41,494 bases of DNA from a virus: the IMG/VR virus record IMGVR_UViG_3300035701_000091, positions 1 through 41,494 of that record. The stretch is one strand, 5' to 3'. Shown here in pieces: positions 4,621 through 27,348 of this stretch. Below the pieces are notes generated by a model. The model was not told the DNA's origin. It did no database searches and saw only the letters and a list, made by a program, of their open reading frames with translations. Positions within the stretch are counted from its first letter, which is position 1. Every line of letters starts with the position of its first letter. The translations under genes and the position numbers were made by a program.

Positions 4621-4622
4621 CC

Positions 4623-5429: not shown

Positions 5430-5459
5430 TTGACAACAAGCCGATGTTCGTGGTATAAT
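5430..5459 (+). promoter_or_regulatory. Consensus sigma-70 promoter for the recombination operon
   Basis: TTGACA (5430-5435) and TATAAT (5454-5459) match the consensus exactly with an 18-bp spacer. The -10 is preceded by GTGG. The start would fall near 5466, 40 bases before the ERF gene, and the leader contains a DnaA box. Confidence 0.8.
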
Positions 5460-7052: not shown

Positions 7053-7070
7053 TCCATTTCGTGGTATAAT
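7042..7070 (+). promoter_or_regulatory. Consensus sigma-70 promoter before the lysozyme-like gene
   Basis: TTGACA (7042-7047) and TATAAT (7065-7070) with the ideal 17-bp spacer. The -35 box overlaps the end of the HTH gene. It would drive the muralytic gene and probably groES-groEL. Confidence 0.85.
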
Positions 7071-9955: not shown

Positions 9956-9971
9956 AATCCGCAAGAGAAGA

Positions 9972-10000
9972 ACTCAAAGGGTCTAACTTTGGGTTTTTTT
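9972..10000 (+). terminator. Intrinsic terminator between groESL operon and terminase genes
   Basis: ACTCAAAG (9972-9979) pairs with CTTTGGGT (9987-9994), one G-U, with a 7-nt loop and seven T after the stem. The preceding AGAAGAACT resembles the leader text of the other attenuators at 15240 and 27322. The terminase SD follows 5-15 bases later. Confidence 0.75.
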
Positions 10001-11982: not shown

Positions 11983-12010
11983 TTGACAAAATAAAATAAA
12001 AGTTTATAAT
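11983..12010 (+). promoter_or_regulatory. Consensus sigma-70 promoter of the portal operon
   Basis: TTGACA (11983-11988) and TATAAT (12005-12010), both perfect, 16-bp spacer. The predicted start near 12017 lies only about 12 bases before a terminator hairpin. A second TTGACA at 11925 lacks a well-spaced -10. Confidence 0.85.
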
Positions 12011-12028
12011 TTTAGTTAAGCACGGGAG

Positions 12029-12052
12029 AACCGCAATAACTGCGGTTTTTTT
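12029..12052 (+). terminator. Leader attenuator of the portal operon
   Basis: AACCGCA (12029-12035) pairs perfectly with TGCGGTT (12041-12047), loop ATAAC, followed by seven T. It lies between the promoter and the SD AAGGAG of the first gene, so transcripts must pass it to express the operon. Confidence 0.8.
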
Positions 12053-12065
12053 GTAAGGAGTATCT

Positions 12066-12302
12066 ATGGTTGAACTAATCATCGTAATTGTCTTTCTTAT
12101 TTATCTTGGATTTAGAGAATGGGATGTCTCCAAACATATTCGAGATTTAGAACTCAAACTAATGGCGAAAGATCCTCAAGAGTATGCGGCTCTCAAAAGA
12201 TTAGAGAAACCAATCAAAGAAATAAAAAAAGAGAATGAAGATTTAATTGAACCGGAAGATGCAAATCCAGCTGATGCCATAAGAGGTATACTAAAGGAGT
12301 AA
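12066..12302 (+). CDS. Small membrane-anchored protein
   Basis: Seventy-eight residues. Residues 2-17 (VELIIVIVFLIYLGFR) form a transmembrane helix, followed by a charged coiled-coil (IRDLELKLMAKDPQEYAALK) and an acidic tail. First gene after the attenuator, with SD AAGGAG, four bases before the portal gene. Small membrane proteins beside portals are common in phages of this type, but the role is unknown. Confidence 0.7.
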   Translation: MVELIIVIVFLIYLGFREWDVSKHIRDLELKLMAKDPQEYAALKRLEKPIKEIKKENEDLIEPEDANPADAIRGILKE

Positions 12303-12306
12303 TATA

Positions 12307-14373
12307 ATGGAAGGAATTGACTCGACTGACGAGGTATTACAAGGTTCTGATGAAGAATTTTTAGCCAAATTGAAAGTTTGGCACGATGCGGCCAAGAAAA
12401 ATCGTCAGATAATGGATTGGAATTGGTATCTCTACGACAATTATTATCGCGGCAATCACTATATTCAATTTAATAAACGAACTAATCAGATTGTCACCCC
12501 GCCCCGACCCAAAGGGCAAATCAGATTAACAGTTAATGTAATTTATTCTATTTGCCGGGCAATTAGAAACTTTGCTACTTCTTATCGTCCCAAGTGGGAA
12601 GTGGCGACGGATTCTACTACTGAAGATGAGATAAACAATAGTCGTAAATCGGCTGATACTTTGGATTTTTATTACGATCATCTCGAACTGCCCAAAAAGA
12701 TTAAAGGAATTGCAAATTACATTATCAAATATGGAATCGGATATTTCCAGTATGGCTGGGACGAGGAAGCCACCGGACTCGATAATCAAAAAGGTGAAGT
12801 TGATGTTTGGACAAGAGATCCTTTCGATGTTTATCTTGACCCGGCTGGAATGGAGACCGGTGATATTCAAAATTGTCGTTATATTGATATTGCCGTTTCA
12901 AAACCAATTCAAGATATTATCAACAACAAGGTGTATGAGGCAAAACTTAAAGCCGCCAATCTTCAAGCAGAGGATATTTCTGGTTCAACGACTCGCGCCG
13001 CTTCAGAATTTAAACAAATCTTGATTCAAAACCAATATGCGGGCAGTTTCGGGAGCGAAGACGAATTCAAAACTGTTATTTTGCACGAGACACTTTATAA
13101 AAAATTAGTTAAAGACGACACTCAAGTTTGGGTGGCTTCTTGGATCGAAGGACACTTGCTTCGAAATGAGCAAACAGAATTTAATAAATATAATCTTATC
13201 CCCATCCCTTCTGATGATAATCCAAATGAAATCTATGGCGAGGGATACATTAAAAATTTAGTGCCGCTTAATAAAGTGCTTAATCGTTTAGAATCTCAAG
13301 TGGTAGAATATAATAATTTGGTAAATCGGGGTCGGATAATCGCCGATAAAGATGCCGGCATAAATAAGATTACCAATGAAACCGGGGAAATAATCGAAAA
13401 GAATGCTGGTGCTGATGTCCACGATATGCAGCCAGCTGGTTTAGCGCCCGATATGAATGCTCAAATTAACAGAATGAGAGATTATATCAAAGAAATTTCA
13501 GGGGTGCTTGATGCCTTTATGGGTAAAGTTCCTGAAGGAGTAAAGTCAGGAGTGGCGCTTGAATCGCTTAAAGCCCAAACTGCCAATAATCTACAGGATA
13601 TAAAAGATAATTTAGAAGTTGGTTTGGGTCAATTAGGTGAAGGAATCTTGGAAACGTTGGCTAATGAAGTGGTGGCACCAAGACAACTCAAAACTGCAGG
13701 TAAAGATGGTAAATCCGAATACTTTAAGATTAAAGGTCAGGTGGGAGTGGGAGCAAATGAGGAACTGTCCGACGATACCTATGTCATTGGCAATCAAAAT
13801 CAAGTTAAAGTTATTATTGGGTCTGGACTTGCCTATACCAGAGAAGGTAGAATTACCCGGCTTGATAAATTATTAGAACAAAAGGTAATTGGTCCCGAAG
13901 CATATTTGAAAGGGATTGAATTTGGTAATATTGATGAGGTTGTCCAAGAAGCTACTAAAGCTAAATTTAATGATGCGATGTTATCTAATATTGAAAAGAA
14001 TGGTTTGCGTGGGCCGGTTCAGGGCGCGCCAGAGATGCCAATGGCGGGAGGCGCTCCAACTGGTCAACCGGCTGGGCAAATGCCTCCACAAGGCGCACAG
14101 GGGCAAGTAGGTGGTCAAGCACCACAACCACCTAATCCCGAAGATCCTAATTTCTGGCCGGCATTGGCGGAATATGAGAATTATCAAATGTTGAATGGTC
14201 AGAATCTCCCTCCAACTAAAAATGCCACTAAAGAGCATACCGCGATCCATATTGCTTTTTCACAAAGCGATGATGCTCAAACGAATGAGCAACTATTGGC
14301 AATGTTGCTTGAGCATATAAAAGGGGAAGAAAAAATGTCTGGAATGCCAACTAAAGGGAAACAAAATGTTTGA
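12307..14373 (+). CDS. Portal protein (P22/podovirus-like)
   Basis: A 688-residue protein in the usual place between terminase and scaffold/capsid. Typical portal text includes RLTVNVIYSICRAIRNFATS at about 75-95, VWTRDPFDVYLDPAG at about 170-185 and a long helical stem. MNAQINRMRDYIKEISGVLD then SGVALESLKAQ (about 385-425) matches the GVSGVALxxLQ-like stretch of P22-type portals. Residues ~575-620 are a Gly/Pro/Gln-rich linker (PAGQMPPQGAQGQVGG), followed by a short tail. Twelve copies would form the DNA channel and packaging docking site. The last eight bases overlap an inserted HNH endonuclease gene, so the natural C-terminus may have been altered by the insertion. Confidence 0.88.
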   Translation: MEGIDSTDEVLQGSDEEFLAKLKVWHDAAKKNRQIMDWNWYLYDNYYRGNHYIQFNKRTNQIVTPPRPKGQIRLTVNVIYSICRAIRNFATSYRPKWEVATDSTTEDEINNSRKSADTLDFYYDHLELPKKIKGIANYIIKYGIGYFQYGWDEEATGLDNQKGEVDVWTRDPFDVYLDPAGMETGDIQNCRYIDIAVSKPIQDIINNKVYEAKLKAANLQAEDISGSTTRAASEFKQILIQNQYAGSFGSEDEFKTVILHETLYKKLVKDDTQVWVASWIEGHLLRNEQTEFNKYNLIPIPSDDNPNEIYGEGYIKNLVPLNKVLNRLESQVVEYNNLVNRGRIIADKDAGINKITNETGEIIEKNAGADVHDMQPAGLAPDMNAQINRMRDYIKEISGVLDAFMGKVPEGVKSGVALESLKAQTANNLQDIKDNLEVGLGQLGEGILETLANEVVAPRQLKTAGKDGKSEYFKIKGQVGVGANEELSDDTYVIGNQNQVKVIIGSGLAYTREGRITRLDKLLEQKVIGPEAYLKGIEFGNIDEVVQEATKAKFNDAMLSNIEKNGLRGPVQGAPEMPMAGGAPTGQPAGQMPPQGAQGQVGGQAPQPPNPEDPNFWPALAEYENYQMLNGQNLPPTKNATKEHTAIHIAFSQSDDAQTNEQLLAMLLEHIKGEEKMSGMPTKGKQNV

Positions 14374-15013
14374 AAAAGGATACATTCCTTGGAATAAAGG
14401 ATTAAAATGCCCATACATAAGTATCTTTAATAAAGGTCGCAAATTATCCGAAGAAACAAAGTTAAAGATAAGTGAAATAGCTAAACAAAAAGGTTTTGGT
14501 AAATGGATGAAAGGTAAAAAACTCACAGACGAACATAAAAAAAATATTGGCATTGCAAGCGGAAAAAGAAAATATGGTGAAAAATTCAAAGAAAAAATGA
14601 GAATTATAACAAAGGGTAGATTTTTAGGAAAAAAACAAAGTTTAGAAACAAGGTTGAAAAGAAGCGAGGCTACTAAAGGAACACGAACAGGGAAAAGTAA
14701 TCCAAATTGGAATGGGGGAATTACTAACGAGACCGCAAAAATAAGAACAAGTATAGAAAATAGATTATGGCGCGAATCAGTATTTGCACGAGACAACTGG
14801 ACTTGTCAAAAAACAGGTATAAAAGGTGAAAGATTGGCGGCACATCACATTAAAAACTTCTCTCTATATCCAGAATTACGCTTTGCAATAGATAACGGAA
14901 TTACATTATCAAAAGAAACTCACGACGAATTTCATAGAATATACGGTAAGAAAAATAACACAATTGAACAAATAATAGAATTTATGGGAGGCCAAAATGC
15001 CACACGAGTTTGA
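14366..15013 (+). CDS. HNH homing endonuclease with NUMOD3 DNA-binding repeats
   Basis: A 215-residue protein. Residues ~1-125 contain three or more NUMOD3-like repeats (GYIPWNKGLK, GRKLSEETKLKISE, GKKLTDEHKKNIGIASG, KKQSLETRLKRSEATKG), the DNA-contact module of homing endonucleases. The HNH domain follows: WRESVFARDNWTCQKTG, AAHHIKNFSLYPELRFAIDN with the catalytic His pair, then GITLSKETHDEFH. It is free-standing. It begins inside the portal gene's last codons and ends 17 bases inside the next gene, packed with almost no loss, which is typical of mobile intergenic endonucleases. It uses SD AAAGGG. AT-richer than its neighbours. Confidence 0.9.
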   Translation: MFEKGYIPWNKGLKCPYISIFNKGRKLSEETKLKISEIAKQKGFGKWMKGKKLTDEHKKNIGIASGKRKYGEKFKEKMRIITKGRFLGKKQSLETRLKRSEATKGTRTGKSNPNWNGGITNETAKIRTSIENRLWRESVFARDNWTCQKTGIKGERLAAHHIKNFSLYPELRFAIDNGITLSKETHDEFHRIYGKKNNTIEQIIEFMGGQNATRV

Positions 15014-15182
15014 ATCTTGCGTATCTAATGGCGGACGAGTCCGAACCAAAAAACTTGGTGGTGGAAAATATATGCACCTCTGCTGGGATAAATCGGGCAA
15101 ATCACACGCCGGTGAAGTTAAAACTGCTGAAACCAAAGCCAAAACTACTAAGGGTGCTTTTATTAGAGCCGCTTCTAAATAA
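14997..15182 (+). CDS. Small hypothetical protein of the head operon
   Basis: Sixty-one residues: PHEFESCVSNGGRVRTKKLG, then HLCWDKSGKSHAGEV and a Lys/Ala tail ending FIRAASK. The C-SNGGRVRT ... H-LC pattern is reminiscent of short phage proteins found near portal genes, but I know no function. SD GGGAGG lies inside the end of the homing endonuclease gene. Confidence 0.6.
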   Translation: MPHEFESCVSNGGRVRTKKLGGGKYMHLCWDKSGKSHAGEVKTAETKAKTTKGAFIRAASK

Positions 15183-15185
15183 GTA

Positions 15186-15213
15186 TTGACATACAATTTA
15201 ATAGTATTATAAT
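15186..15213 (+). promoter_or_regulatory. Consensus sigma-70 promoter of the scaffold-capsid operon
   Basis: TTGACA (15186-15191) and TATAAT (15208-15213) with a 16-bp spacer, identical in geometry to the promoters at 11983 and 39530. Confidence 0.85.
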
Positions 15214-15239
15214 TAAATTAAATAAATAGCTAACAGAAG

Positions 15240-15267
15240 AACTGCAGCTAACCCTGCGGTTTTTTTT
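15240..15267 (+). terminator. Leader attenuator of the scaffold-capsid operon
   Basis: AACTGCAG (15240-15247) pairs with CTGCGGTT (15254-15261), one G-U, then a T-run to 15267. The 14 bases TAACAGAAGAACTG at 15231-15244 are identical to 27313-27326 in the next such module. The first gene lies 87 bases downstream. Confidence 0.8.
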
Positions 15268-15353
15268 AATAATAGAATAGTTAAGTAAATAATTGACGAA
15301 ACTTTCAGCGGCAGTCGCAAGACCAACCGCAGGAGGAAGTCAAAGGAGTTACA

Positions 15354-16013
15354 ATGGCTGACGAAACACCAGATGGTGAAGTCAACAATGACGATCAGAA
15401 AATCGTTATCGGGGATGTTGAATTAAGTCCCGATGAGGCGAAGGATCTGGTCACAAAGGGTAAAACTTTTAAGGAGTTGTCGGAGAAATATCCCGACATC
15501 AACTTCGAAGAATTACCAAAGAGTTTTACAAAGACCCGACAGGAACTTGCGGACTTGAAAAAGCCCAAAAGCAAGGAAACCGACGAAGGTCTCTCTGACG
15601 AAGAAGTTGCAAGACGAAAAAGCATTAAGGATTTCTTTGCAGACCCGCTAGTCAAAGAAGAGCTTAAAAATATGACCAGTGCGGACAGTAAGACCCTTAA
15701 AGAGGATTTGGAATTTCAAAAAGTGATGGAATCACTTGAGTCCGAATTCGACGGTGCTGATGGCAGACCGAAGTTTGTCGCAAAGGATGTTTTGGTTTAT
15801 GGTCAGGGACACAACATTTTTAATCCTCGAACCGCTTACAATGAATTGCACGCTACGGAATTAGATGAGTGGAAGATTAAAAATGCGATGTCTAAACCTC
15901 GACCCTCAACTTTCTTTGAGAAAAAGGGTGGCGCAGGAAGCAAACAACCCGAACCAAAAGAACCGACAAATTTTAGGGAAGCCACCGCCGCCGCTCTAGA
16001 AAACGAAGAATAA
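15354..16013 (+). CDS. Scaffolding protein
   Basis: A 219-residue acidic, low-complexity helical protein directly before the major capsid gene, the standard place for a scaffold. The N-terminal third is Asp/Glu-rich (DGEVNNDDQKIVIGDVELSP). The middle is charged helix (LSDEEVARRKSIKDFFADPL). The C-terminus is Lys/Pro-rich and then helical (FFEKKGGAGSKQPEPKEPTN, then FREATAAALENEE), which could be the capsid-binding end. It has no protease motif. Scaffolds direct shell assembly and leave before DNA packaging. SD AAAGGAG. This is inferred from position and composition. Confidence 0.75.
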   Translation: MADETPDGEVNNDDQKIVIGDVELSPDEAKDLVTKGKTFKELSEKYPDINFEELPKSFTKTRQELADLKKPKSKETDEGLSDEEVARRKSIKDFFADPLVKEELKNMTSADSKTLKEDLEFQKVMESLESEFDGADGRPKFVAKDVLVYGQGHNIFNPRTAYNELHATELDEWKIKNAMSKPRPSTFFEKKGGAGSKQPEPKEPTNFREATAAALENEE

Positions 16014-16047
16014 GAAGTATGAAGAGTATTATAAATTAAAAATAGGA

Positions 16048-16075
16048 AGATTATCTGAATAAATAAAGATAATCT
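16048..16075 (+). promoter_or_regulatory. 5' UTR hairpin that brings a distant SD to the capsid gene start
   Basis: AGATTATC (16048-16055) pairs perfectly with GATAATCT (16068-16075). There is no SD within 25 bases of the capsid ATG at 16085, but AGGA is at 16044-16047, immediately before the stem. If the 28-nt hairpin is folded, AGGA is nine bases from the ATG. The hairpin probably completes the ribosome site and may also stabilise the mRNA end. Confidence 0.6.
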
Positions 16076-16084
16076 AAAAATATT

Positions 16085-17356
16085 ATGGCAACAAGTTTAG
16101 AAGGTCAGCAAGTAGGTGCAACTGCTGGTACCTATTTTGATGATGCTTTAAGGATTCATTATCAACCAGCTATTAGGACGCAATTTCCTCAGAAATCAGT
16201 CCTTTTGCAGAACCTTGAAAAAGGCGATGCGAAAAAGATTGACACTTCTGGAAATTTTGCTCGTATAACCCTTCAGAAAGCTTTGCATCCTTCAGTTGGT
16301 GCGAAACCAGAAGGTTATGCACTGCCGGGCAAGGATTATACACGACTTGAAACCACTGATGTGTATATGCGTTATAATTATGGAAGAATTGAGATTTCAG
16401 GACCAGTTATGAGAGCTTCACGCGACGATCGTGGTGCGGTGATGAAGGCTTTGGAAGTTGAAACAGAATCAGTCACCAAATCAATGAGAAACGATGTCAA
16501 CCGACAATTGGCTTGTGGAACTGGTGTAGGTACATTGGCACAGATCAATGGTGCTACTCCGACCACAACTTGGACTTTGGATCACCTTCTGGGTATCGCT
16601 TTCACCACCCCATCAAGTATTGGTTCAGAGGTTGCTCCGACCAAGTATTTTGTTGCGGGTATGAAAGTTGACTCATTCGCTACCGCCGGGACACCGACAG
16701 AAACGACAGCGGGCAAAGTAACGACAGTTGATTCGGCTACTTCTATCACAGGTACAACTATCACAGCGGCCGCAGATGATCAGTATCTATGCCGAGAAAA
16801 TGCCGGTGCCGCTGAAATGATGGGACTTCGAGGTATTATCGATGACTCCGGTCATCTTGATACTCTCCAGACCATCACCCGAGCAACTGCAGGAAACGCT
16901 TATTGGAAAGCATCTGTGGTTGATTATGGATCAGCGGCCGCTCCTGCGACTTTGGTAGAAGCTTATATGCAGGAAGCCACTACTCTTAGTGAGAAAAACG
17001 ATGGCGAAGTTTCCTTTGTGCTTACCACCTTTGGCCTTCGAGATTCTTATGTCTCGATCCTTCAGTCAGACAAACGCTTCGTAAATACGACTGAGTTAAA
17101 AGGTGGCTTCAAATCGATCGACTTCAACGGAACACCACTTACCCCAGATAAAGACTGCACACCCTATACGATGTATTTCGTTGATAAAAGCACCCTGGAA
17201 CTTTTTGAACAATCCCCAATTTCTTGGGCTAATGAGGATGGTTCGGTTCTTTCACGAGTTGCTAACTATGACGCTTATGAGGCCTTCCTTTACTACTACG
17301 CCAACTTGGGTGTCAACAACTGTGTGAAAAATTCCTGTTTATCTTACTGCCAATAA
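16085..17356 (+). CDS. Major capsid protein (HK97-like fold expected)
   Basis: A 423-residue protein right after the scaffold. Family-like features are a helical N-arm ending FPQKSVLLQNLEKGDAKKID, YGRIEISGPVMRASRDDRGA then VMKALEVETESVTKSMRNDV, resembling the E-loop and spine helix, and a C-terminal Gly/Tyr-rich part. An insertion of about 70 residues rich in Thr and Ala (residues ~185-240, TAGTPTETTAGKVTTVDSAT) may form a surface domain. It assembles the icosahedral shell. Its translation start seems to depend on a looped-out hairpin. Clean stop TAA; the next gene is 170 bases away behind structured RNA. Confidence 0.85.
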   Translation: MATSLEGQQVGATAGTYFDDALRIHYQPAIRTQFPQKSVLLQNLEKGDAKKIDTSGNFARITLQKALHPSVGAKPEGYALPGKDYTRLETTDVYMRYNYGRIEISGPVMRASRDDRGAVMKALEVETESVTKSMRNDVNRQLACGTGVGTLAQINGATPTTTWTLDHLLGIAFTTPSSIGSEVAPTKYFVAGMKVDSFATAGTPTETTAGKVTTVDSATSITGTTITAAADDQYLCRENAGAAEMMGLRGIIDDSGHLDTLQTITRATAGNAYWKASVVDYGSAAAPATLVEAYMQEATTLSEKNDGEVSFVLTTFGLRDSYVSILQSDKRFVNTTELKGGFKSIDFNGTPLTPDKDCTPYTMYFVDKSTLELFEQSPISWANEDGSVLSRVANYDAYEAFLYYYANLGVNNCVKNSCLSYCQ

Positions 17357-17384
17357 TATCCTTTTGTAGGATTTGGAGATGTTT

Positions 17385-17505
17385 GGCGGAGTTCATCTCA
17401 AAACAAACCGCCGTGAAAAGTAATTTAATTAAAGTATCTTGAGGCGTCTAAAAAGGGTTGGAGGTTTCCCCCTCCTTGCCTCCAACTCCTCTCAAACGTC
17501 TCAAG
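17385..17505 (+). other. Structured intergenic RNA after the capsid gene
   Basis: GGCGG/CCGCC pairs at 17385-17412. A larger stem pairs CTTGAGGCGT 17438-17447 with ACGTCTCAAG 17496-17505 (one G-U) and encloses GTTGGAGG 17457-17464 with CCTCCAAC 17479-17486. No T-run follows, so it is more likely an RNA-stabilising or processing structure that separates very high capsid expression from the next gene. Confidence 0.55.
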
Positions 17506-17528
17506 GGTAAACTATCGAAAGGAACAAA

Positions 17529-18437
17529 ATGATTAAGAACAGAAATATCGCCTCTGATGCAGGAATAGACGTGACTAAAATAATTGGGTCAGATATTGGC
17601 GAAGTTAGATATGTGTGCAGAGAAAATACCAATTCACATGCAATGTTAAAAGGTAGAGTTCCAAGTAGCATGTTATATCTTTGCGACGGAACAGCTGACG
17701 AAGTTCAGATTAACCAAGCTATAGCAGCTTCAAAAGGTGGCACAAACTCTTACATCTATGTATTTCCAGGTTCATATACCTTGGCGGCGGCGATATCCTT
17801 CTCGGGAAAATCATCAATGCACTTGATTGGCGCAAATGGTTTGAATAGAACAGTTGGTACTAACGGTGCTGTTGCTTTAACGCAAGGTGGTAGTTGTGTG
17901 GGTATTACAATGGAAGCATATGGAGAAGTTGCAGGATTACAGATAATCAACAAAGCTGGATATGCAGCAATAGATGTTCCTGCGAATATTTGGAGAACTA
18001 ACATCCATCACAACACATTCTGGATGACACAAGGTTCAGCGTGTTATATCGTTGCTGTTGGTAATGCCGCTTCTTATGGAAATATAAGTTACAACAGATT
18101 CTCTACTGGCACAGGTGGTAATTTTACGGCTGTTATAGGTTCATCAACGGGAACTGGTATAGATATCATTGGAAATCACATAACTATTGTATCTGGGACA
18201 GTTACCTATGGTATTTATGCACAAGGTGCTCAATGTATGGTTGCAGATAACTACATTTCTACTTGTGGTAGTTTATGCACAATCACTCATGCTATTGATA
18301 TCTGGGAGTCAGGCGCTGCGGTGAATAACAGATGTGCGGTTGCTACTACATTAGGTATTAATGGTGGAACTGCATCTGTATCATTTGTCGATAACAGAGA
18401 TGGTGCTTCTGGTGGTGCTGCTGCGGTAACCACATAG
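17529..18437 (+). CDS. Right-handed beta-helix protein (pectate-lyase-like fold), virion protein
   Basis: A 302-residue protein. Residues ~50-65 contain DGTADEVQINQAIAASKGGT, the usual lead-in of a pectate-lyase-type beta-helix (DGTxDxVxIQxAI). Coils rich in Asn, Gly, Ile and Val follow (IHHNTFWMTQG, ISYNRFSTG, IIGNHITIVSG, VADNYISTCG), typical stacked turns. It could be a head-attached decoration or fibre that binds host sugars; no catalytic residues are evident. SD GAAAGGAA. The place next to the capsid gene favours a head or neck attachment over a tail tip, but this is inference. Confidence 0.75.
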   Translation: MIKNRNIASDAGIDVTKIIGSDIGEVRYVCRENTNSHAMLKGRVPSSMLYLCDGTADEVQINQAIAASKGGTNSYIYVFPGSYTLAAAISFSGKSSMHLIGANGLNRTVGTNGAVALTQGGSCVGITMEAYGEVAGLQIINKAGYAAIDVPANIWRTNIHHNTFWMTQGSACYIVAVGNAASYGNISYNRFSTGTGGNFTAVIGSSTGTGIDIIGNHITIVSGTVTYGIYAQGAQCMVADNYISTCGSLCTITHAIDIWESGAAVNNRCAVATTLGINGGTASVSFVDNRDGASGGAAAVTT

Positions 18438-18452
18438 AATTAGGAGATAATT

Positions 18453-18662
18453 ATGACCAACTTAGACATTAAATTTATGTGTCCAAGATGCATGGGAACT
18501 GGTTATGATTCTACAAGCGCAAACCCTGGAAGTTGTCTGCCATGTGCAGGTTTAGGTTATATAGCAAAAGATAAGATAGATATTACTTCCCTACAAGCAG
18601 ACATCGATAAAATCCTCCGCAGATTAAAAAAGATAATGGATAAATTAGAAATAACAGAATAG
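18453..18662 (+). CDS. DnaJ-type zinc-knuckle plus coiled-coil protein
   Basis: Sixty-nine residues. Two CxxCxGxG-like knuckles, CPRCMGTGY at 10-18 and CLPCAGLGY at 29-37, form one zinc site like half of the DnaJ zinc domain. A coiled-coil follows (LQADIDKILRRLKKIMDKLE). With GroESL also encoded, a folding-related role is possible but unproven. It has SD AGGAGA and lies within the head operon. Confidence 0.65.
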   Translation: MTNLDIKFMCPRCMGTGYDSTSANPGSCLPCAGLGYIAKDKIDITSLQADIDKILRRLKKIMDKLEITE

Positions 18663-18669
18663 GAGAATT

Positions 18670-18972
18670 ATGAAAACAGTTGTAAACACAAATGTCGAAA
18701 AAGTGGAAGCTTATTTCGATGGGAAAAACATCATCTTCGGGGCTGGACAGAAGAAATTTTTTGAAGATGGGATTGCTTCAGAGATAGTCCGCGAGAATGA
18801 AGGGCTTGTTTTTGAGGAAGATGTTCCAGTCGCGGAAGTGGCCGAAGAGGCGCCTGAAGCACCCGTAGAGGCAAAGGGCGATGTTTATAAAGAGACCACG
18901 ACCAAAAAGGGCATTGTCCAGTATCGTAAGAACGGCAAAATCATCAGTAAAGAAGAATATGAGAATCGATGA
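18670..18972 (+). CDS. Hypothetical head-operon protein
   Basis: A 100-residue protein with an N-terminal beta-rich part (VNTNVEKVEAYFDGKNIIFG), a central acidic Ala/Pro/Val stretch (VAEVAEEAPEAPVEAKGD) and a basic C-terminal part (KNGKIISKEEYENR). It overlaps the next gene by four bases (ATGA), and is probably a structural or assembly protein of the head-neck operon. No family recognised. Confidence 0.6.
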   Translation: MKTVVNTNVEKVEAYFDGKNIIFGAGQKKFFEDGIASEIVRENEGLVFEEDVPVAEVAEEAPEAPVEAKGDVYKETTTKKGIVQYRKNGKIISKEEYENR

Positions 18973-19301
18973 TTTCCGTAGACTTCATTAACCAATTAAG
19001 GCGGCTTGATCGCACTTTGGTATTGAGGTTAAATCGCGAAAAACAAAGGTATGTAATATACCGCAAGGATAGACAGAATGTTCCTCGCGAGATTCTTGTT
19101 ATTGAGAACCCTGACGGGGAGTTCTGTTATCCTAACCGAGAACATATAGTGCAGTTGTATAAGGCAGACCTTTGGCAAAACCCCGATATGATTAAAAAAA
19201 TGGATGAGCATAACGAAAGATTGGATGAGGAGAGTGATAGACATATCCATTTTTTATCAGACGAAATGAGTAAATTGGCCACGAGGACAAAATATTATTG
19301 A
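18969..19301 (+). CDS. Hypothetical head-operon protein
   Basis: A 110-residue protein, coupled to the upstream gene by ATGA. A strand-rich middle (YVIYRKDRQNVPREILVIEN, then PDGEFCYPNREHIV) is followed by a charged helix (MDEHNERLDEESDRHIHFLS). The pattern resembles conserved phage proteins of unknown role that sit between capsid and tail genes. No closer assignment. Confidence 0.6.
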   Translation: MISVDFINQLRRLDRTLVLRLNREKQRYVIYRKDRQNVPREILVIENPDGEFCYPNREHIVQLYKADLWQNPDMIKKMDEHNERLDEESDRHIHFLSDEMSKLATRTKYY

Positions 19302-19315
19302 GAAAGTGAGGTCAA

Positions 19316-20295: not shown

Positions 20296-20475
20296 ATGAA
20301 TTTTAAAGCAAAAATAGTCAATGGGAAACCTGTCGTTCAAACAAAGGTCGAAAGAAAAAGAAACAAGAATGGCGGTTGGGATGTCATAGTCCATGCACCA
20401 AGTTTGAAAATTATCAATAAATTTGAAGAAAGGAACGAAAATGGCAAGCGGAATTTACAACCGATTCAAAGCTAA
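20296..20475 (+). CDS. 59-residue basic hypothetical protein
   Basis: ATG directly after the previous TAA, with SD AGGGGGT upstream. It reads MNFKAKIVNGKPVVQTKVER then a basic stretch (KRNKNGGWDVIVHAP). Its 3' end overlaps the next gene by 35 bases and contains that gene's SD. Function unknown. Confidence 0.55.
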   Translation: MNFKAKIVNGKPVVQTKVERKRNKNGGWDVIVHAPSLKIINKFEERNENGKRNLQPIQS

Positions 20476-20854
20476 TTTAATGAATAAGATAGTTGATTTG
20501 GAAGCAGATAATATCTATGTGGCTTTATATAACGATAGCCATGCTTTTACGGCGACTGATACTGCCTATACGACTACTAATGAATTAGCAACTGCCGGTG
20601 GATACACACGAGGTGAGGATGCTTCCAACTTATTGGCGAATAAAGCAGTTACAGAAGCGGCAACAACTAAGTGGGATGCTGATAACCAGGCTTGGACTTC
20701 AGCAACTTTTACCGCTTATCATGCAGTTATATTTGATGGTACATTAGCAGGAAATGATTTGATAGCTTCGATTGACTTTGGTGGAGCACAAACCGTATCT
20801 TCAGGGACATTTACCATACAATGGCACGGAGATGGCATAATTACGTTAGCCTGA
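20441..20854 (+). CDS. Hypothetical virion protein
   Basis: A 138-residue protein starting MASGIYNRFKANLMNKIVDL. I chose this ATG because GAAAGGAA is upstream; the frame also offers a TTG at 20423. The sequence DNIYVALYNDSHAFTATDTA, then GGYTRGEDASN and IASIDFGGAQTVSSGTFTIQ, resembles conserved phage proteins found near head-tail genes. Beta-rich, probably structural. No proven role. Confidence 0.7.
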   Translation: MASGIYNRFKANLMNKIVDLEADNIYVALYNDSHAFTATDTAYTTTNELATAGGYTRGEDASNLLANKAVTEAATTKWDADNQAWTSATFTAYHAVIFDGTLAGNDLIASIDFGGAQTVSSGTFTIQWHGDGIITLA

Positions 20855-20916
20855 ACCTGTTTAAAGGCAGGGGCGGGAGAACCTTGACAAAAGCTCCTGT
20901 ATTATGAGGGAGTAAT

Positions 20917-22902
20917 ATGAATTATACAAAACTGAACAACACATACTTTGCTACACCACAAGAAAATCCAAAAGATTTGATTACTATTGAAGTTGGGGAT
21001 TCTAAACAAGTAGAATTCTATCCTCAATTAAAAGTAATGCGTTGGAATAATGAGGTTAATGTTTCGATACGCTTAAAAACTGATATAAAGCAAATTCCCT
21101 TAAAGGTTGGTGATAAAATATCAACCGAGAATATAGAATTTTACGAATTAGAAAATGGCTATGAATTTAATGTTGTCTTAAAAGAAAAACCCTTAACTAA
21201 TGTAATTGAATTTACCCTAGAAAATAAGGGTGTTAATTATTTCTACCAACCAGAACTTACCGAAGAAGAAATAGACAGAGGTTCGGTAAGACCAGATAAT
21301 GTAGTCGGTTCTTATGCGGTTTATGCTTCGGAAAACAAAACAAACTATGTCGGCGGTAAAGAATACAAATGCGGAAAAGTCGGACATATTTATAGACCAA
21401 GAATTGAAGACGCTGAAGGAACGAAAGTTTGGGGAGATTTGCACATTGAAAATGGAATACTCTCGGTTACTATTCCTCAAGAGTTTTTAGACAAAGCGGT
21501 TTATCCAGTCAGACACGCCGCAGGATTAACTTTTGGATATACGAGTGCAGGAGCAAGTGAACAAGTATTTTACAACCCCGACTATGGATGGGGAATAAAA
21601 GCCGCACCAGCTTCAAGCGGTTCAGCAACAAAAATTACAGTTTGGTGTAAAAATGGGACTGGAAGTTATGCTGGATATATTAAAGGAGTCCTTTGGGGAA
21701 CTGATTTAGCGATTATAACAAACGGAGTGGGCGGCACTAGTGCGGAAATAGCTGCGACTTCAATGACAGAATATGACAGTACCTTTGGGACTAGTCCAGA
21801 TGTGGTTGGTAGTACGAATTATTGGGTTGGTTTGATTGATAATGCAGGTGGTGCAGGTGCTTCTGATTTAATTGCTTATGATACTGGTTCGACTGGGGAC
21901 GGCATAAGAGATTATAGTAATAGTTATACAACTCCAATAGCCATTAATGCTCCTTATGAGGAAGTTCTTTACCAATACTCCATCTACTGCACCTATGAAG
22001 CAGGAGGGGGCGATAAAACTGTTACTCCATCCGCATTATCTTTGACTTCATCCTTAAAAGCCCCAACTATAACTAAAGTATGGAGCAAGACCGTCGCTAT
22101 AACTGCGGCATTGGCGTTATCACTCACTTTGCAAGTAATAACACCAAAAGTTACAAATTTACCTTCTGCACAAGAATTATCATTATCATTAAATGCACCA
22201 ATTCCTAAAGTAACAAAAATCCCCACAGCACAAACATTGAATTTATCCCTTAAAAGCCCTGTTGTTGTTTTAGGTCAAACCGTTACTGCTACCCCCGATG
22301 CAAGTGCCTTAACTTTGACATTAAATAGTCCATCATATAAGACCGATGATTCATACACCCCAGCGACTCAACAACTTCAACTGACGCTTAACAATCCATT
22401 GGTTTCGATAAAAGTATTACCAGACAGTCAACCATTGTCTTTAAGTCTTGGCAGTCCTTCTTACAAAACCAATGATTCTTTTACCTCATCTGCGCAAGTT
22501 TTAAGTTTATTACTGAAAAGCCCGACAATATCAATTATCCAAAGTAATTCTGTATCAGTAAATGCTTTAAACCTTAGTTTAACAATCAATACCCCGACTT
22601 ATTCTTCGGTTAGAATAATATCTGTTATACCATCAGATAGAGCAAGAATTGGTTTATCCAACCGGAGATCAAAAATATTAATAGATAATAAGAAATCTTT
22701 AATATCGGGAAGTATGGCGGCTGTTTCTAGTATTGGCCATAAACAACTATTTGATAGCGGATTATTATTTGATAGCGGATTATATTTTGATGATTATGGC
22801 GGCAGTCCGATTGATGGCGAAAAGGCAAAAATAGAAATAGCAAATAAAAGAAGTTTAATAAATAAAAGTAAAGATAAGGCAAAAATAAGTATTGGGAGAT
22901 AA
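20917..22902 (+). CDS. Large fibre-like virion protein with Leu/Ser/Pro repeats
   Basis: A 661-residue protein. Residues 1-200 are mixed (a beta-sandwich-like part, KAVYPVRHAAGLTFGYTSAG at the end). Residues ~205-360 look like a jelly-roll lectin-type domain (GWGIKAAPASSGSATKITVW, then YWVGLIDNAGG). Residues ~370-570 hold about eight degenerate repeats of ~24 residues with core LxLSLxxPxxK (ELSLSLNAPIPKV, TLNLSLKSPVVV, PLSLSLGSPSYKT). The C-terminus has two short homologous basic segments (DRARIGLSNRRSKILIDNKK and EKAKIEIANKRSLINKSKDK). This fits a fibre or adhesin stalk. SD GAGGGAG. Confidence 0.65.
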   Translation: MNYTKLNNTYFATPQENPKDLITIEVGDSKQVEFYPQLKVMRWNNEVNVSIRLKTDIKQIPLKVGDKISTENIEFYELENGYEFNVVLKEKPLTNVIEFTLENKGVNYFYQPELTEEEIDRGSVRPDNVVGSYAVYASENKTNYVGGKEYKCGKVGHIYRPRIEDAEGTKVWGDLHIENGILSVTIPQEFLDKAVYPVRHAAGLTFGYTSAGASEQVFYNPDYGWGIKAAPASSGSATKITVWCKNGTGSYAGYIKGVLWGTDLAIITNGVGGTSAEIAATSMTEYDSTFGTSPDVVGSTNYWVGLIDNAGGAGASDLIAYDTGSTGDGIRDYSNSYTTPIAINAPYEEVLYQYSIYCTYEAGGGDKTVTPSALSLTSSLKAPTITKVWSKTVAITAALALSLTLQVITPKVTNLPSAQELSLSLNAPIPKVTKIPTAQTLNLSLKSPVVVLGQTVTATPDASALTLTLNSPSYKTDDSYTPATQQLQLTLNNPLVSIKVLPDSQPLSLSLGSPSYKTNDSFTSSAQVLSLLLKSPTISIIQSNSVSVNALNLSLTINTPTYSSVRIISVIPSDRARIGLSNRRSKILIDNKKSLISGSMAAVSSIGHKQLFDSGLLFDSGLYFDDYGGSPIDGEKAKIEIANKRSLINKSKDKAKISIGR

Positions 22903-22904
22903 TT

Positions 22905-23552
22905 ATGGCAGCCAACTTTCCCACTAATTTACCCGCTACTAAAACTGATTATGATGGAAATGATGAAATCGCCTCGAGTATTATAAATAGTCAAGCAGTA
23001 GAAATAAATGCTCTCGGCACTAAAGTTGGGATTGATAGTTCAGCAGTTACGACCTCACACGATTTCAAATTATCTGGTGTTACTGGGACTGATAAAGCGG
23101 TTTCAAAAACAGGTGAAGAGACTTTAACAAATAAAACCTTGACTAGTCCTATAATCAATCAATTTGGGACAGCGTCTGGGCTTGGTGCGGCTTGGACGGC
23201 TTATACCCCCTCACTTTACAAAAACGATGGCACGACTGCCTTATCGGGGACAATCGGTTTAGCCAAATACACCCAAATTGGCAAAACCGTAATTATATCT
23301 TTTGTTTTTACGGCGATGGCTAACCCAGGCGGAACTCAAATATTTTTCACTTTGCCAGTAGCGACTAAAAGTGAAACCATTAACCAAGTAATTGGTGCTG
23401 GTTATACTGTTAATGGCACAACCACTCTTGTGGGGATGTGTTATATCTTAGCCAATACGACTACCAAAGGAACTCTATATTATGGGGCTGGTAGTGCTTG
23501 GGGGGCTTCGGGAAATGCGGCGGTAATGACGGTTAGTTATGAGGCGGCTTAA
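22905..23552 (+). CDS. Tail-fibre-like protein
   Basis: A 215-residue protein. Residues ~10-40 read NDEIASSIINSQAVEINALG, and ~65-85 carry GEETLTNKTLTSPIIN, a motif frequent in phage fibre proteins (TLTNKTLTSP). A Gly/Thr-rich beta-sandwich follows (IGLAKYTQIGKTVIISFVFT, VSYEAA at the end). It is probably attached to the preceding large protein or is a short fibre. SD GGGAGA. No enzyme motif. Confidence 0.65.
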   Translation: MAANFPTNLPATKTDYDGNDEIASSIINSQAVEINALGTKVGIDSSAVTTSHDFKLSGVTGTDKAVSKTGEETLTNKTLTSPIINQFGTASGLGAAWTAYTPSLYKNDGTTALSGTIGLAKYTQIGKTVIISFVFTAMANPGGTQIFFTLPVATKSETINQVIGAGYTVNGTTTLVGMCYILANTTTKGTLYYGAGSAWGASGNAAVMTVSYEAA

Positions 23553-23564
23553 TAAAGGAGTAAA

Positions 23565-24908
23565 ATGCAAATCACATCTTTTTTACCAGACATTGACGAA
23601 CCAAAAACGTATTTAACGGCTTCAGTGGCGGCCGCCGGGACGGCTTTAACAGTTGCCAATAACGCTCAATTTGCCGCCAATGATTATATTGTCATTGGTA
23701 AACCCAGACAAGAAGGGGCGGAATTACATAAAATTTCAACAGTTTCGGGGGCGACGACAATAAATATCGCTGGCGATGCTATGGATCTGGCCGCTTCAAT
23801 AAATACTCCCGTAACCTATATTAAATACAATCAAGTCAAGTTCTATATGGGTGATTGGTCAACAAGATATTATACTGGCACAGTCGCTATCAACAAGAAC
23901 TCGGCGACTTTAACAGGCACTGGCACCACTTGGACTGCTATTACTACTGCCTATGCACTTTTATTAAACGGCAAATGGTATGATATCAAATCAGTTGACT
24001 CGACGACTCAAATTACCTTGACCGAAAATTATGTTGATGAGGATCTTGAAAGCGCCTCTTATGCTTTAGTTTTATTTGCGGTTCAAAGTGGTTCAACAGT
24101 TGATATTGCGATTACTCAGGAATTTACCATCTGGGACGACACTGATGCGATAACAGAAGATTATTACCGAAGTGAATATTATAATGCCACCTCAACGGCC
24201 GCTTCAACTAAATCAAGCATAATTTCGGCCGCTGAAGAAGAAGGTTATAGCGAATATGCTTTGAGAAGTTTGGAAGATCAGGTTTTATCTGATTTGCGTG
24301 ATGTAGGCGCGAAACGAAGAACAAGACCCGAAATCGACAGGGATATCAACGATGGTATTAAAGAACTTATCAATACGATTGTCTCTGATGTTCAGGAAGA
24401 TTATCTAAATACTTATGACACAATAGATTTTAACGCCAACCGGGGAGAGTATCCTTTATTTGATGATTTTAGGAAATTAACCGCAGTTTGGATTTCTTAT
24501 AATGGCACTGATTACGAAAAAGCGACCGCAATGAAAATAAGTGATGATGTGCCAGATGCCGATTATGATGAAAGTTATCCGATGTATTATTTACGGGATA
24601 ATAATATGGGGATCAGACCAGAACCAACCGCGGCGGTAACTGCCGGGGCGAAGGTATGGTATGAACGCCGCATTCCTTCTCTCAAATATGAGGGAGACGA
24701 AATCCCCTATATCTTACGAGATTGGAAGCGCGCTTTAATAGATTATGCTTTAGAAAAGGCGTTTTTAGCTGATGATCAACAAAAAGCATCTATTTACGGA
24801 GCGGCTTTCAAAATTGCTAAAAAAGATATGGCCAAGACCCTCAAGGATCGGGACTTGGAGGCGACTAAAGTCATCGAAGCAGTTAATGATTCCGATTTAT
24901 ATCTTTAG
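23565..24908 (+). CDS. Head-tail adaptor protein (with fused N-terminal beta domain)
   Basis: A 447-residue protein. The N-terminal ~200 residues are beta-rich (TALTVANNAQFAANDYIVIG is a typical fibre/tail motif). The C-terminal half is helical and fits the gp4/gp16-like adaptor group: RTRPEIDRDINDGIKELINT, then a strand part (ISYNGTDYEKATAMKISDDV), YPMYYLRDNNMGIRPEPTAA and a final helix (WKRALIDYALEKAFLADDQQ). Adaptors extend the portal channel. It lies directly before the nozzle-like protein. Fusion to a beta domain is unusual. Confidence 0.65.
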   Translation: MQITSFLPDIDEPKTYLTASVAAAGTALTVANNAQFAANDYIVIGKPRQEGAELHKISTVSGATTINIAGDAMDLAASINTPVTYIKYNQVKFYMGDWSTRYYTGTVAINKNSATLTGTGTTWTAITTAYALLLNGKWYDIKSVDSTTQITLTENYVDEDLESASYALVLFAVQSGSTVDIAITQEFTIWDDTDAITEDYYRSEYYNATSTAASTKSSIISAAEEEGYSEYALRSLEDQVLSDLRDVGAKRRTRPEIDRDINDGIKELINTIVSDVQEDYLNTYDTIDFNANRGEYPLFDDFRKLTAVWISYNGTDYEKATAMKISDDVPDADYDESYPMYYLRDNNMGIRPEPTAAVTAGAKVWYERRIPSLKYEGDEIPYILRDWKRALIDYALEKAFLADDQQKASIYGAAFKIAKKDMAKTLKDRDLEATKVIEAVNDSDLYL

Positions 24909-24915
24909 GAGATAA

Positions 24916-26301
24916 ATGCCACAAATTCTTTTTTCTAATTTTAACCAAAGCCAAGGCCTCAATATTGGAGTCAACCAATATCTTAATAAAGATGGTGAAT
25001 GCCGGGAAGCCCTTAACTGTGATTTTTCTGAAGTGGGAACACTCCAAAGACATTTGGGATATACCACTTATGGGGATAAAATCTCAACTTCGGCAATCTT
25101 GGGTTTATATGATTTCAAAACTATTGCTACCGGTGTTACCAAATGGATCGCCAAAAATGCCACCAAACTTTATTATGATAACGCCGGCACTTGGACAGAT
25201 ACTGGCGCGACCGTAACTACTGCTGAAGATATAACATTCTGCACTCATTTGGATACTTTAATTGGGGGAAGTATTTCAGACGCACCAGTTAAATCAACCA
25301 ATGGCACCTCATTTTCTACCCTTAGCGGTTCACCGCCAAAAGCCAAATACTGGTTGACTTTTGATAACAAAGTTTATGCTCTAAATCTCAAAACTTATCC
25401 CTATAGAATAAGATGGTCAGATGATGGAACTATCGAAACTTGGACATCAACCAATATCCAAGATGTCGCTACCAATATCGGAATTGGCGATCAGATTACG
25501 GGCGGAACAGTTAATAATAATAATTTATTAGTTTTCAAAAATTATTCAACTTGGAAATGGGATACTTACGAACTTAGGACTTTGCATAGTTCAATAGGTT
25601 GTCGCGCGCCCAAGTCAATTGCCACGATTGATGATTGGTCTTTTTGGCTTTCTCATCAAGGGATTTATGCCACCAATGGTGGCAAACCTTTCCGAATTTC
25701 TAAACCAGTTAAAGCCTTTATTGAGGGGATAACGGATATTACCACCCCGGTTGGTTGGGCGGAAGATAATTTTTATTATCTTTATATCGGCACTTCAAAC
25801 GGAATTACTAATTGTCTTTTAATTTACGATTATGATAATAATGTTTGGTCTTATAAATCAATGGCCGATGTGATTAAACAGGCCGCAGTCCTCACTACTT
25901 CAGGCAATGTTCGTTCTGCTTATATTGGGGACGATGCTGGTCAAGTTTATAAATTTAAAACCGGCAATAATGATAATGGCGATCCAATTCCTTTTAAATG
26001 GGTGGGCGCGCCACAAATGTCTGGCAATGCCCACTTGCAGAAGGATTATAAATATTTTTATGTCTTTTTAGACAGAACCGCTAAATATGGCATAGATGTT
26101 TCTTATTCAGTGGATTTTGAGGATTTCAAACCTCTTGGGACGGCTTATAATGCCATTTCAGAACTTCCTTTTCCAGCCGGGACACCAGGGCATAATATCC
26201 GGATAATGTATTCGACAAATCTTACCACCGATCAGCAGAAGATCCTTGGCCACCTGGCCGTTGGAGATGTTCTCCGTGGGCGTCTTGGGGAGGTCGTATG
26301 A
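24916..26301 (+). CDS. Tail nozzle / DNA-stabilisation protein (P22 gp10-like beta-propeller)
   Basis: A 461-residue protein. It begins NFNQSQGLNIGVNQYLNKDG then EALNCDFSEVGTLQRHLGYT, the GGLN...D..EA.....D....G....R.G opening typical of podovirus nozzle proteins. It continues with propeller-like blades (VYALNLKTYPYRIRWSDDGT, FWLSHQGIYATNGGKPFRIS, LLIYDYDNNVWSYKSMADVI, SAYIGDDAGQVYKF). Such proteins close the neck and hold the DNA. It strongly supports a short-tailed virion. Its stop overlaps the next start (ATGA). Confidence 0.8.
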   Translation: MPQILFSNFNQSQGLNIGVNQYLNKDGECREALNCDFSEVGTLQRHLGYTTYGDKISTSAILGLYDFKTIATGVTKWIAKNATKLYYDNAGTWTDTGATVTTAEDITFCTHLDTLIGGSISDAPVKSTNGTSFSTLSGSPPKAKYWLTFDNKVYALNLKTYPYRIRWSDDGTIETWTSTNIQDVATNIGIGDQITGGTVNNNNLLVFKNYSTWKWDTYELRTLHSSIGCRAPKSIATIDDWSFWLSHQGIYATNGGKPFRISKPVKAFIEGITDITTPVGWAEDNFYYLYIGTSNGITNCLLIYDYDNNVWSYKSMADVIKQAAVLTTSGNVRSAYIGDDAGQVYKFKTGNNDNGDPIPFKWVGAPQMSGNAHLQKDYKYFYVFLDRTAKYGIDVSYSVDFEDFKPLGTAYNAISELPFPAGTPGHNIRIMYSTNLTTDQQKILGHLAVGDVLRGRLGEVV

Positions 26302-26981
26302 GAATAAAAGACCCGAGTTGGGATCAAAAAGAATATGGATATAATAGATTTTTGACTCAACCTCTAAAATCGAAAGATCCTAATTATAGATCAAGTGAAG
26401 AATTTGATTTAGAAAGCGAAGATGCTTCGGTTAAAACTTCTAAGGTGAGTGATGTTGCTACCAATAAAGTTAAGGTTGCGCCAAAAGGAATATCATCTTC
26501 AAAAATAAGGGTTTGGGAAATTTGGTATTTAGGTTTAATTTCAACCGTTATTGTTGGTGGAGAAATAGATGGAACTCCAGACATAGGCTATATCTTAAAT
26601 GTATACGTACACCATAGTTTTAGTGATTTTATTACTGACGCTATTCCTTTTTATATGATGTGGGGATATAAGCAAGCTGACGCAGGCGTAAATGTGGGAA
26701 CTTGGAAAAAAGCTAATTCATTATATAGTTTAGCTGTTTCTGGCGGAAGTTCTACTCAAAGTACCAGTCACGAATCATATAAAGTGGGACCACCTAATAC
26801 CAGCGAATATATACATTTTCAGTGGACGGTTATGTGGGTTAGCGGAACCGTTACTATTCCCGTGCAAACCGTAAAGGCATATCTTTGTATAATGTATTCC
26901 CGAATTGCTGAAACGCTTCCGGCAACCGCCCAGGGTGGTGGTGGCGGCTATCTTATTGAAGATATTAATATTTATATTTAA
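26298..26981 (+). CDS. Hypothetical structural protein
   Basis: A 227-residue protein coupled to the nozzle gene (ATGA, SD GGGGAGGT). The N-terminal 65 residues are polar and probably disordered or an attachment arm (LTQPLKSKDPNYRSSEEFDL). The rest is beta-rich and aromatic (RVWEIWYLGLISTVIVGGEI, then YIHFQWTVMWVSGTVTIPVQ). It ends with a Gly run (AQGGGGGYLIEDINIYI). Probably a tail or fibre component. No family recognised. Confidence 0.6.
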   Translation: MRIKDPSWDQKEYGYNRFLTQPLKSKDPNYRSSEEFDLESEDASVKTSKVSDVATNKVKVAPKGISSSKIRVWEIWYLGLISTVIVGGEIDGTPDIGYILNVYVHHSFSDFITDAIPFYMMWGYKQADAGVNVGTWKKANSLYSLAVSGGSSTQSTSHESYKVGPPNTSEYIHFQWTVMWVSGTVTIPVQTVKAYLCIMYSRIAETLPATAQGGGGGYLIEDINIYI

Positions 26982-26989
26982 AGGTTATT

Positions 26990-27277
26990 ATGAATAAAAC
27001 CGAACAATTAAAAAAAGATTATTTTGATCACGGATACAAACTGGTAAAAGAAAAAAATGGTATTTTATTTTTTGAAACTGAAAAAGATTATAATATAAAA
27101 CACAATATTTACCACAAAACCCACCCAATTTTTACTGATAAATCTAGAGGCACCAGAAGTCGAGTAATTACTCAAAATATTTGCGGTTGGTGTAGGGTTA
27201 ATCTTGAAGATGATACTTGTCCAAAATGTCATCGGAAATATAATATCGTAACTAAAAAACCTCATTATAATACTTAA
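26990..27277 (+). CDS. Zinc-ribbon hypothetical protein
   Basis: A 95-residue protein. The C-terminal part has CGWC at about 64-67 and CPKCHRKY at about 76-83, a two-knuckle zinc ribbon. The N-terminal part is Lys/Asp-rich (KKDYFDHGYKLVKEKNGILF). It closes the operon before the next promoter-attenuator module. Function unknown. Confidence 0.65.
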   Translation: MNKTEQLKKDYFDHGYKLVKEKNGILFFETEKDYNIKHNIYHKTHPIFTDKSRGTRSRVITQNICGWCRVNLEDDTCPKCHRKYNIVTKKPHYNT

Positions 27278-27295
27278 AATAATTTTTTAAAAATA

Positions 27296-27304
27296 TGATA
27301 TAAT
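27296..27304 (+). promoter_or_regulatory. Extended -10 promoter of the ejection-protein operon
   Basis: TGATATAAT is a perfect extended -10 element (TG-N-TATAAT). A -35 match is weak (TTAAAA at 27274, 19-bp spacing), which extended -10 promoters tolerate. The leader then runs about 10 bases to the 14-mer shared with 15231. Confidence 0.6.
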
Positions 27305-27321
27305 AAGGGCGATAACAGAAG

Positions 27322-27348
27322 AACTGAGTCGCGAAACTCAGTTTTTTT
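27322..27348 (+). terminator. Leader attenuator of the ejection-protein operon
   Basis: AACTGAGT (27322-27329) pairs perfectly with ACTCAGTT (27336-27343), loop CGCGAA, then T to 27348. An SD (AAAGG) and the first gene follow within 20 bases. Confidence 0.85.

Follow-up and report, generated by a model that had tools for sequence, protein, structure and literature searches.

The virus record IMGVR_UViG_3300035701_000091, whose 41,494 bases form the window analysed here as a whole, raises the question of why its late operons carry an intrinsic terminator ahead of their first gene. A first-pass annotation of the letters alone had described three such leaders and proposed that they are governed by antitermination through a leader motif. 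We describe a module in which a very short hairpin is joined to the terminator; it stands at the head of four late operons of the window and recurs in related phages, and these conserved heads look like a common on/off switch for the late genes. On balance we consider it somewhat probable that each late operon is headed by a conditional intrinsic terminator.

A GC-rich stem running directly into a U run, the signature of intrinsic termination, is found at four sites of the window, namely 9970–10000, 12028–12052, 15239–15267 and 27321–27348. They were located by a folding-based scan and their bases were checked; a fixed-rule scan for promoters and terminators left them unflagged in the expected orientation because of its limits on stem and loop. 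The stems fold at about −10 kcal/mol and are followed by T7–8, and in the folding-based scan of both strands of the window these four are the sole clean terminators of GC stem plus T7–8, the weaker hairpin-plus-T matches elsewhere being mostly intragenic. All four lie in 5' leaders of late operons, 13–86 nucleotides (nt) ahead of a late gene start, and three of them sit 8–20 nt past strong sigma70-type promoters. The order of promoter, terminator and first gene that had been reported for the regions at 11983, 15186 and 27296 is thus borne out, with 12/12 promoter matches at two of them and an extended −10 box at 27299. The count rises from three to four, however, since the related terminator noticed near 9972 belongs to a full module at 9970–10000, which we call module 1, although it has no convincing promoter. 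The perfect early-type promoters at 5430, 7042 and 39530, in contrast, have no such terminator behind them. From the expected start through the terminator, none of the three leaders with a promoter has an ATG, GTG or TTG, which argues against a leader-peptide mechanism (translational attenuation). The names given to the late genes behind modules 1, 3 and 4 are partly positional.

The 14-mer said to be common to two leaders, TAACAGAAGAACTG, occurs exactly twice, at 15231 and 27313; in shuffled sequence hits with up to two mismatches averaged 0.25, and two hits were reached in 3/100 shuffles. It is real, but as a leader motif it is one version of a looser element, and when extended to the T-run as a search pattern in a first pattern scan it gave 13 matches and not a single module. 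Similarly, GAAC is indeed present at all four stems, but it is the C that begins the GC stem, whereas the GAA or AAGAA in front of it pairs with the U-tract in the predicted fold. The looser element reads A followed by NRG-AAGAA-CYN, that is, a 3-base-pair (3-bp) inverted repeat around an A-rich loop of five bases. In the leaders of the near clade (the closest relatives, listed below) the 3' arm of this mini-hairpin, arm B, doubles as the foot of the terminator stem. This competing structure had been missed in the first-pass annotation and was revealed by the relatives.

The evidence for the mini-hairpin comes from an alignment of 18 leaders on 7 contigs, anchored on AAGAA. Arms A and B are exact Watson-Crick complements in every leader (54/54 pairs), with the triplets GAG/CTC, CGG/CCG, CAG/CTG, GGG/CCC, TGG/CCA and CGA/TCG; there are two-sided changes at all three pairs, no one-sided changes and no G.U. 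The covariation score of A with B is 0.80, compared to 0.28 in shuffles (0/500 as high), and falls to 0.14 or less when the arms are slid by 1–3 columns; with shuffling of the arms confined within each genome, p = 1.7e-4. The base immediately before arm A is A in 18/18 leaders. Among other terminators in the fetched DNA (the L004 module counted out) A:B complementarity is found in 2/196, or about 1%. The 3' arm of the terminator, arm C, complements arm B exactly in only 10/18 leaders and shows a G.U pair or mismatch in the remaining eight, in all of which arm A still matches arm B exactly. Because A:B stays exact where the terminator's own arm deviates, the comparison indicates that A:B pairing is selected in its own right and is not a copy of the terminator 3' arm.

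The motif lies 8–29 nt from the −10 box, in one case 133 nt, and the pre-terminase modules (n = 3) have no good promoter; by these sequence features the element works as RNA, not as promoter DNA. A fixed helical phasing of motif and −10 box was considered and rejected, the spacings being evenly spread between 8 and 29 nt. Taken alone, the mini-hairpin is predicted at −2.5 to +0.6 kcal/mol across the 18 leaders, and the terminator fold of the window leaders at −13 to −14 kcal/mol. Forcing the mini-hairpin in the window leaders costs 9.5–12.6 kcal/mol, the two folds being mutually exclusive; the mini-hairpin alone is therefore too weak and a binder would be needed.

The search of relatives suggested in the first-pass annotation was carried out in IMG/VR with the terminase, capsid and portal proteins, and modules were found both in a near clade and beyond it. 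The near clade comprises G001 (L098/L099), G002 (L100/L101), L003, L004, L011 and L096, with terminases 60–81% identical, and its modules occupy matching gene boundaries. These boundaries are of four kinds (those preceding the pre-terminase gene, the small gene in front of portal, the scaffold/capsid pair and the homologue of gene 27367), and every one that could be inspected bears a module at the matching place. Module 1 has a counterpart in G001 (L098) and a degenerate one in G002 (L101); module 2 has orthologues in L003, L004, L098, L011, L101 and L096, module 3 in L003, L098 and L101, and module 4 in L099 and L100, while G001 has a fifth module. The layout of the module is constant throughout and the stem sequences are divergent. 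Among more distant terminase relatives, 13/14 records had no module of the GAAGAAC type, and three chance matches to the pattern are not terminators.

Two further observations were made in these comparisons. In L052 (6644) and L055 (20018), which are other terminase relatives, promoter-terminator leaders carry GGC-N7-GCC at the foot of the terminator, perhaps a version of the mini-hairpin element with a 7-nt loop. Separately, a comparison of four phages points to a second conserved RNA fold at 15293–15345, downstream of module 3 and ahead of the scaffold start codon; it also occurs in L003 (9097), L098 (15679) and L101 (reverse strand). It has an outer GAC/GUC stem, a middle stem that varies between phages yet pairs, and a tip of GUC-N4-GAC that is of GNRA type in 3/4.

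The mechanism that we propose is as follows. RNA polymerase would start at an ordinary strong sigma70-type promoter, or reach module 1 from upstream, and by default would be released at the U-tract about 35–45 nt into the transcript, leaving the late genes off. Alternatively, the initial ~12 nt of the element could form the 3-bp mini-hairpin with its 5-nt loop (arm A, AAGAA, arm B), and since the foot of the terminator is arm B itself, the two would exclude each other. The mini-hairpin is transcribed before the 3' arm of the terminator, so that it could be held by a binder that is there in time. Such a trans-acting binder, made in infection, would probably read the A-rich loop and the invariant A before it, and polymerase would then pass all late leaders together. 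The antitermination of the first-pass annotation is thereby retained in so far as the gene boundaries are kept and a covarying hairpin competes with the terminator; we infer the termination itself and read-through driven by a factor, as well as the timing of that factor and its origin in the phage.

Modules were also sought more widely by means of a covariance model, whose E-values are rough, and of pattern scans; outside the clade the downstream genes are named from their position and a reading of their sequence. The 58.5 kb genome G022, with an HK97-type head, has two modules, one before a 785-aa gene that resembles the portal-like protein of L276 and the other before a gene that reads as a prohead protease. 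Single modules were found in L276 (before the portal-like gene), in L289 (before scaffold- and capsid-like genes), in L304 and G026 (before a large gene common to both, followed by structural-type genes) and in L302. Phages whose head genes are unrelated thus have the module in front of portal, protease or capsid operons. A scan of viral sequences for a −10 box, GGAAGAACC and a T-run, which left the outer pair and the stem free, gave eight distinct hits with a real hairpin; the outer pair is complementary in seven of them, and the same seven have the preceding A. Variants include GGA-ATATA-TCC at two leaders in G016/G025 and TGG-AAAAA-CCA before a capsid-like gene in G024. Pairing holds in 84/84 cells over all 28 modules, a figure that is biased in part by the discovery of some modules with patterns fixing the inner pairs. 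In genomes of the putative host phylum, 9/240 match the model at E <= 0.02 and only one of these fits both A:B pairing and a terminator by eye, which rules out the module as a general host element.

Several points weigh against a conditional terminator worked by a binder. The 18 near-clade leaders share ancestry and are hence not fully independent, and several of the later modules came from patterns that fixed part of the arms. No protein was found that all phages with modules have in common, a stem of 3 bp is very short for a protein to recognise specifically, and polymerase so near its start may not terminate efficiently. The mini-hairpins of G016 module 2 (L081 18397) and of G024 (L256 10820) abut the terminator stem and have no bases in common with it, so the mutual exclusion is not universal. 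These two leaders agree better with a different explanation, in which the hairpin acts as a loading site like boxB and shares bases with the terminator only incidentally; it would recruit a factor to RNA polymerase, which would then disregard both this terminator and those further on, in processive antitermination as with lambda N. With its short stem and purine-rich loop of 5 nt the hairpin does resemble lambda boxB, and AAGGAATATATCC is common to both G016 leaders in spite of their different terminators. However, in the main clade, as in most other modules, the terminator includes the 3' arm, the stems have 3 bp and not 5, and no boxA-like or Nus-type element was noticed in the leaders (no systematic boxA search was made); moreover, one loading site per genome might suffice for a processive mechanism, yet each late operon has its own. 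We regard a loading site of this kind as rather unlikely, if still worth keeping in mind.

The modules might also be unregulated attenuators or insulators that end the upstream operon or damp the late promoters without any factor. The terminators do lie just past the ends of upstream genes, and module 1 stands between two operons with no promoter of its own, but an insulator would be expected upstream of the promoter, whereas the conserved order is promoter, terminator, gene; the invariant A and the strict pairing of A with B, which ordinary terminators do not have, would be left unexplained, and we consider this improbable. That the hairpin is a 5' mRNA element for stability, processing or translation, and no terminator at all, would agree with start sites that are often a few nt away and with a Shine-Dalgarno sequence close behind. 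The T7–8 tracts behind GC stems are nevertheless exactly those of a terminator, some modules are 70–86 nt from the start codon, and such an element gives no reason for a competing A:B pairing, all of which makes it very improbable. Hardly credible, in our judgement, is a DNA operator in which A-AAGAA-B is an 11-bp palindrome bound in double-stranded form by a dimeric regulator at the late promoters. DNA symmetry would demand the perfectly palindromic arms without G.U that are observed, but base readout would not tolerate arms that vary within one genome (GAG, CGG and CAG in the window), the spacing to the promoter is unphased, and some modules are promoterless.

If the late operons are indeed controlled by a conditional terminator, the protein that would hold the mini-hairpin might be sought among small proteins that accompany the modules. 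The DUF2292 protein of the window is encoded directly before module 1; apart from GroES and GroEL, no other conserved non-structural protein is seen in every one of the four near-clade records spanning the region. A search of the 2.8 Mb of fetched DNA found it in the window, G001, G002, G003 and G026 alone; in G026 its gene lies close upstream of the module in a genome that is otherwise unrelated. Its predicted fold is a helix plus a beta-hairpin (predicted local distance difference test score, pLDDT, 75); the predicted structure has no meaningful structural neighbour and the protein no match among GenBank phages. As a universal factor it is rejected, as it is absent from G022, which has two modules, and for this reason we find it doubtful as the binder. 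Other small proteins common to module-bearing phages are a TM2-like membrane protein and a short protein of unknown function, neither of them an obvious RNA binder. Recognition of the CsrA type, through ANGGA, fails for leaders with GAG or CAG arms. Two small helix-turn-helix proteins are encoded in the window, one (6882–7052) with weak similarity to Mor/late activators and one (39564–39731) with weak similarity to sigma-70 region 4, located directly behind a perfect promoter; both are possible regulators of the late switch.

Modules, promoters and associated features of the window
Feature	Coordinates	Strand	Remarks
Module 1	9964..10000	+	Ahead of gene upstream of terL (ATG 10016); no good promoter
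Module 1 parts			Invariant A; arm GAG 9965-9967; loop AAGAA 9968-9972; arm CTC 9973-9975
Module 1 terminator			Stem 9973-9993, its foot being arm CTC 9973-9975; T7 9994-10000
Module 2 promoter	11983..12010	+	TTGACA-16-TATAAT, 12/12 matches
Module 2	12022..12052	+	Ahead of gene 12066 and portal 12307
Module 2 parts			Mini-hairpin CGG-GAGAA-CCG 12023-12033 overlaps terminator 12031-12045; T7 12046-12052
Module 3 promoter	15186..15213	+	TTGACA-16-TATAAT, 12/12 matches
Module 3	15233..15267	+	Ahead of scaffold-position gene 15354 and major capsid 16085
Module 3 parts			CAG-AAGAA-CTG 15234-15244 overlaps terminator 15242-15259; T8 15260-15267
Module 4 −10 box	27299..27304	+	TATAAT with TG extension, extended −10 TGATATAAT; weak −35
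Module 4	27315..27348	+	Ahead of gene 27367
Module 4 parts			CAG-AAGAA-CTG 27316-27326 overlaps terminator 27324-27341; T7 27342-27348
DUF2292 protein, 56 aa	9683..9853	+	Weak candidate for trans-acting factor, by association only
Perfect early promoter	5430..5459	+	Ahead of ERF gene 5509; module-free contrast
Perfect early promoter	7042..7070	+	Ahead of 7088 and GroES/GroEL genes; module-free contrast
Perfect promoter	39530..39557	+	Ahead of small helix-turn-helix gene 39564; module-free contrast

By its genes (terminase, P22-like portal, major head protein, ERF recombinase, GroES and GroEL) the record is a tailed phage. An exact 253-base terminal repeat (1–253 = 41242–41494) was noticed, which makes it probable that the genome is complete, either circular or terminally redundant. 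No GenBank phage is closely related to it in DNA, and protein comparison gave only distant matches of terminase and capsid; a convincing module is lacking in two distant Manatee Spring phages that were inspected. The best terminase matches in bacterial assemblies are to metagenome-assembled genomes of Candidatus Moraniibacteriota (62% identity) and Saccharibacteria (59%). Because these nearest terminases sit in assemblies of Patescibacteria, a host in that group is plausible. Phages of Patescibacteria are difficult to culture. The near clade keeps the phage GroES and GroEL genes (7816–9672 in the window) immediately ahead of DUF2292 and module 1. Further features are homing-endonuclease-like genes at 14366–15013 and 40648–41289 (NUMOD3, and GIY-YIG with NUMOD3, respectively), related NUMOD3 copies being dispersed at differing sites in relatives; a 36-base direct repeat, 92% identical (3965–4000 and 4588–4623), that flanks a DNA methyltransferase gene (4014–4553); and tandem 15-base repeats of the GGGATATAAACGCT type at 169–311 within the open reading frame 12–485.

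The timing of late genes in phages of uncultured bacteria is essentially unexplored, and the module offers a direct handle on their regulation. It can be read from sequence alone, is repeated at each late operon and is backed by compensatory changes; from it follow predictions of the genes that are late, of the sites at which short aborted RNAs should arise and of the leader bases to mutate. It would also rank among the smallest antiterminator elements known, and it would be testable in Escherichia coli with host promoters alone. More tentatively, and with somewhat less than even confidence, we suggest a new and widespread class of phage late-gene switch, in which an 11-nt mini-hairpin fused to a promoter-proximal terminator forms a regulon at every late operon, is common to lineages with unrelated structural genes and is worked by a novel antiterminator, a small RNA-binding protein that in some of these lineages may be DUF2292.

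How the module relates to known systems can be judged from what each of them reads. The first-pass annotation had seen a likeness in principle to lambda Q and to HK022 put, which does not carry over. HK022 put is a large two-hairpin RNA structure that acts without a factor. A leader RNA could likewise act here near the 5' end of the transcript, but the few to ~25 nt between expected start and motif in most leaders are far too short for such a structure. The likeness to lambda Q is a strong late promoter followed by a terminator, with late genes that need antitermination. Lambda Q and Q21, however, load through an element in the promoter DNA, at a sigma-dependent pause (PMC7171158), whereas the element described here is an RNA hairpin repeated at four operons and, as shown by its variable spacing and by the promoterless modules, no fixed part of promoter DNA. 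No member of the Q family was found among those open reading frames of the window that were scanned with Pfam/PHROGs. Rfam 15 gave no match at gathering score in the window, with sub-threshold matches only, to leaders 2 and 3.

Closer in kind is lambda N with boxB (nut), where phage antitermination also depends on a short RNA hairpin with a purine-rich pentaloop. That site, however, has a 5-bp stem, a GNRA-like pentaloop and boxA, compared to 3 bp and AAGAA here, and N acts at early operons, whereas the present element is found at late operons and is fused to the terminator itself; no N protein was recognised. The ribonucleic antiterminator (RAT) of the BglG/SacY/LicT type is ~29 nt long. As in the near-clade leaders, it is an RNA hairpin overlapping the 5' part of a leader terminator, but the element here has 11 nt, and it stands before phage late genes where RAT stands before sugar genes. 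The corresponding domains, CAT_RBD (PF03123) for RAT and PF03861 for ANTAR, are absent from eight module-bearing records, some of them fragments. In ANTAR antitermination, as in EutV of the eut operon, the protein reads two tandem hexaloops with conserved A1 and G4 and holds the alternative hairpin, terminator and antiterminator being mutually exclusive (PMC8934654). In both, one set of genes has several terminators and a small alternative hairpin overlaps each of them, with a binder that we infer here; the difference is that the present leaders have a single 5-nt loop, mostly AAGAA, and no room for an upstream hairpin. No phage leader of this type was found described in the literature searched, the coverage of which is incomplete. 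By analogy, leaders with mutually exclusive antiterminator and terminator are a known kind of which the phage element is a variant, and the overlap logic of the ANTAR and LicT types fits it better than either lambda Q or HK022 put.

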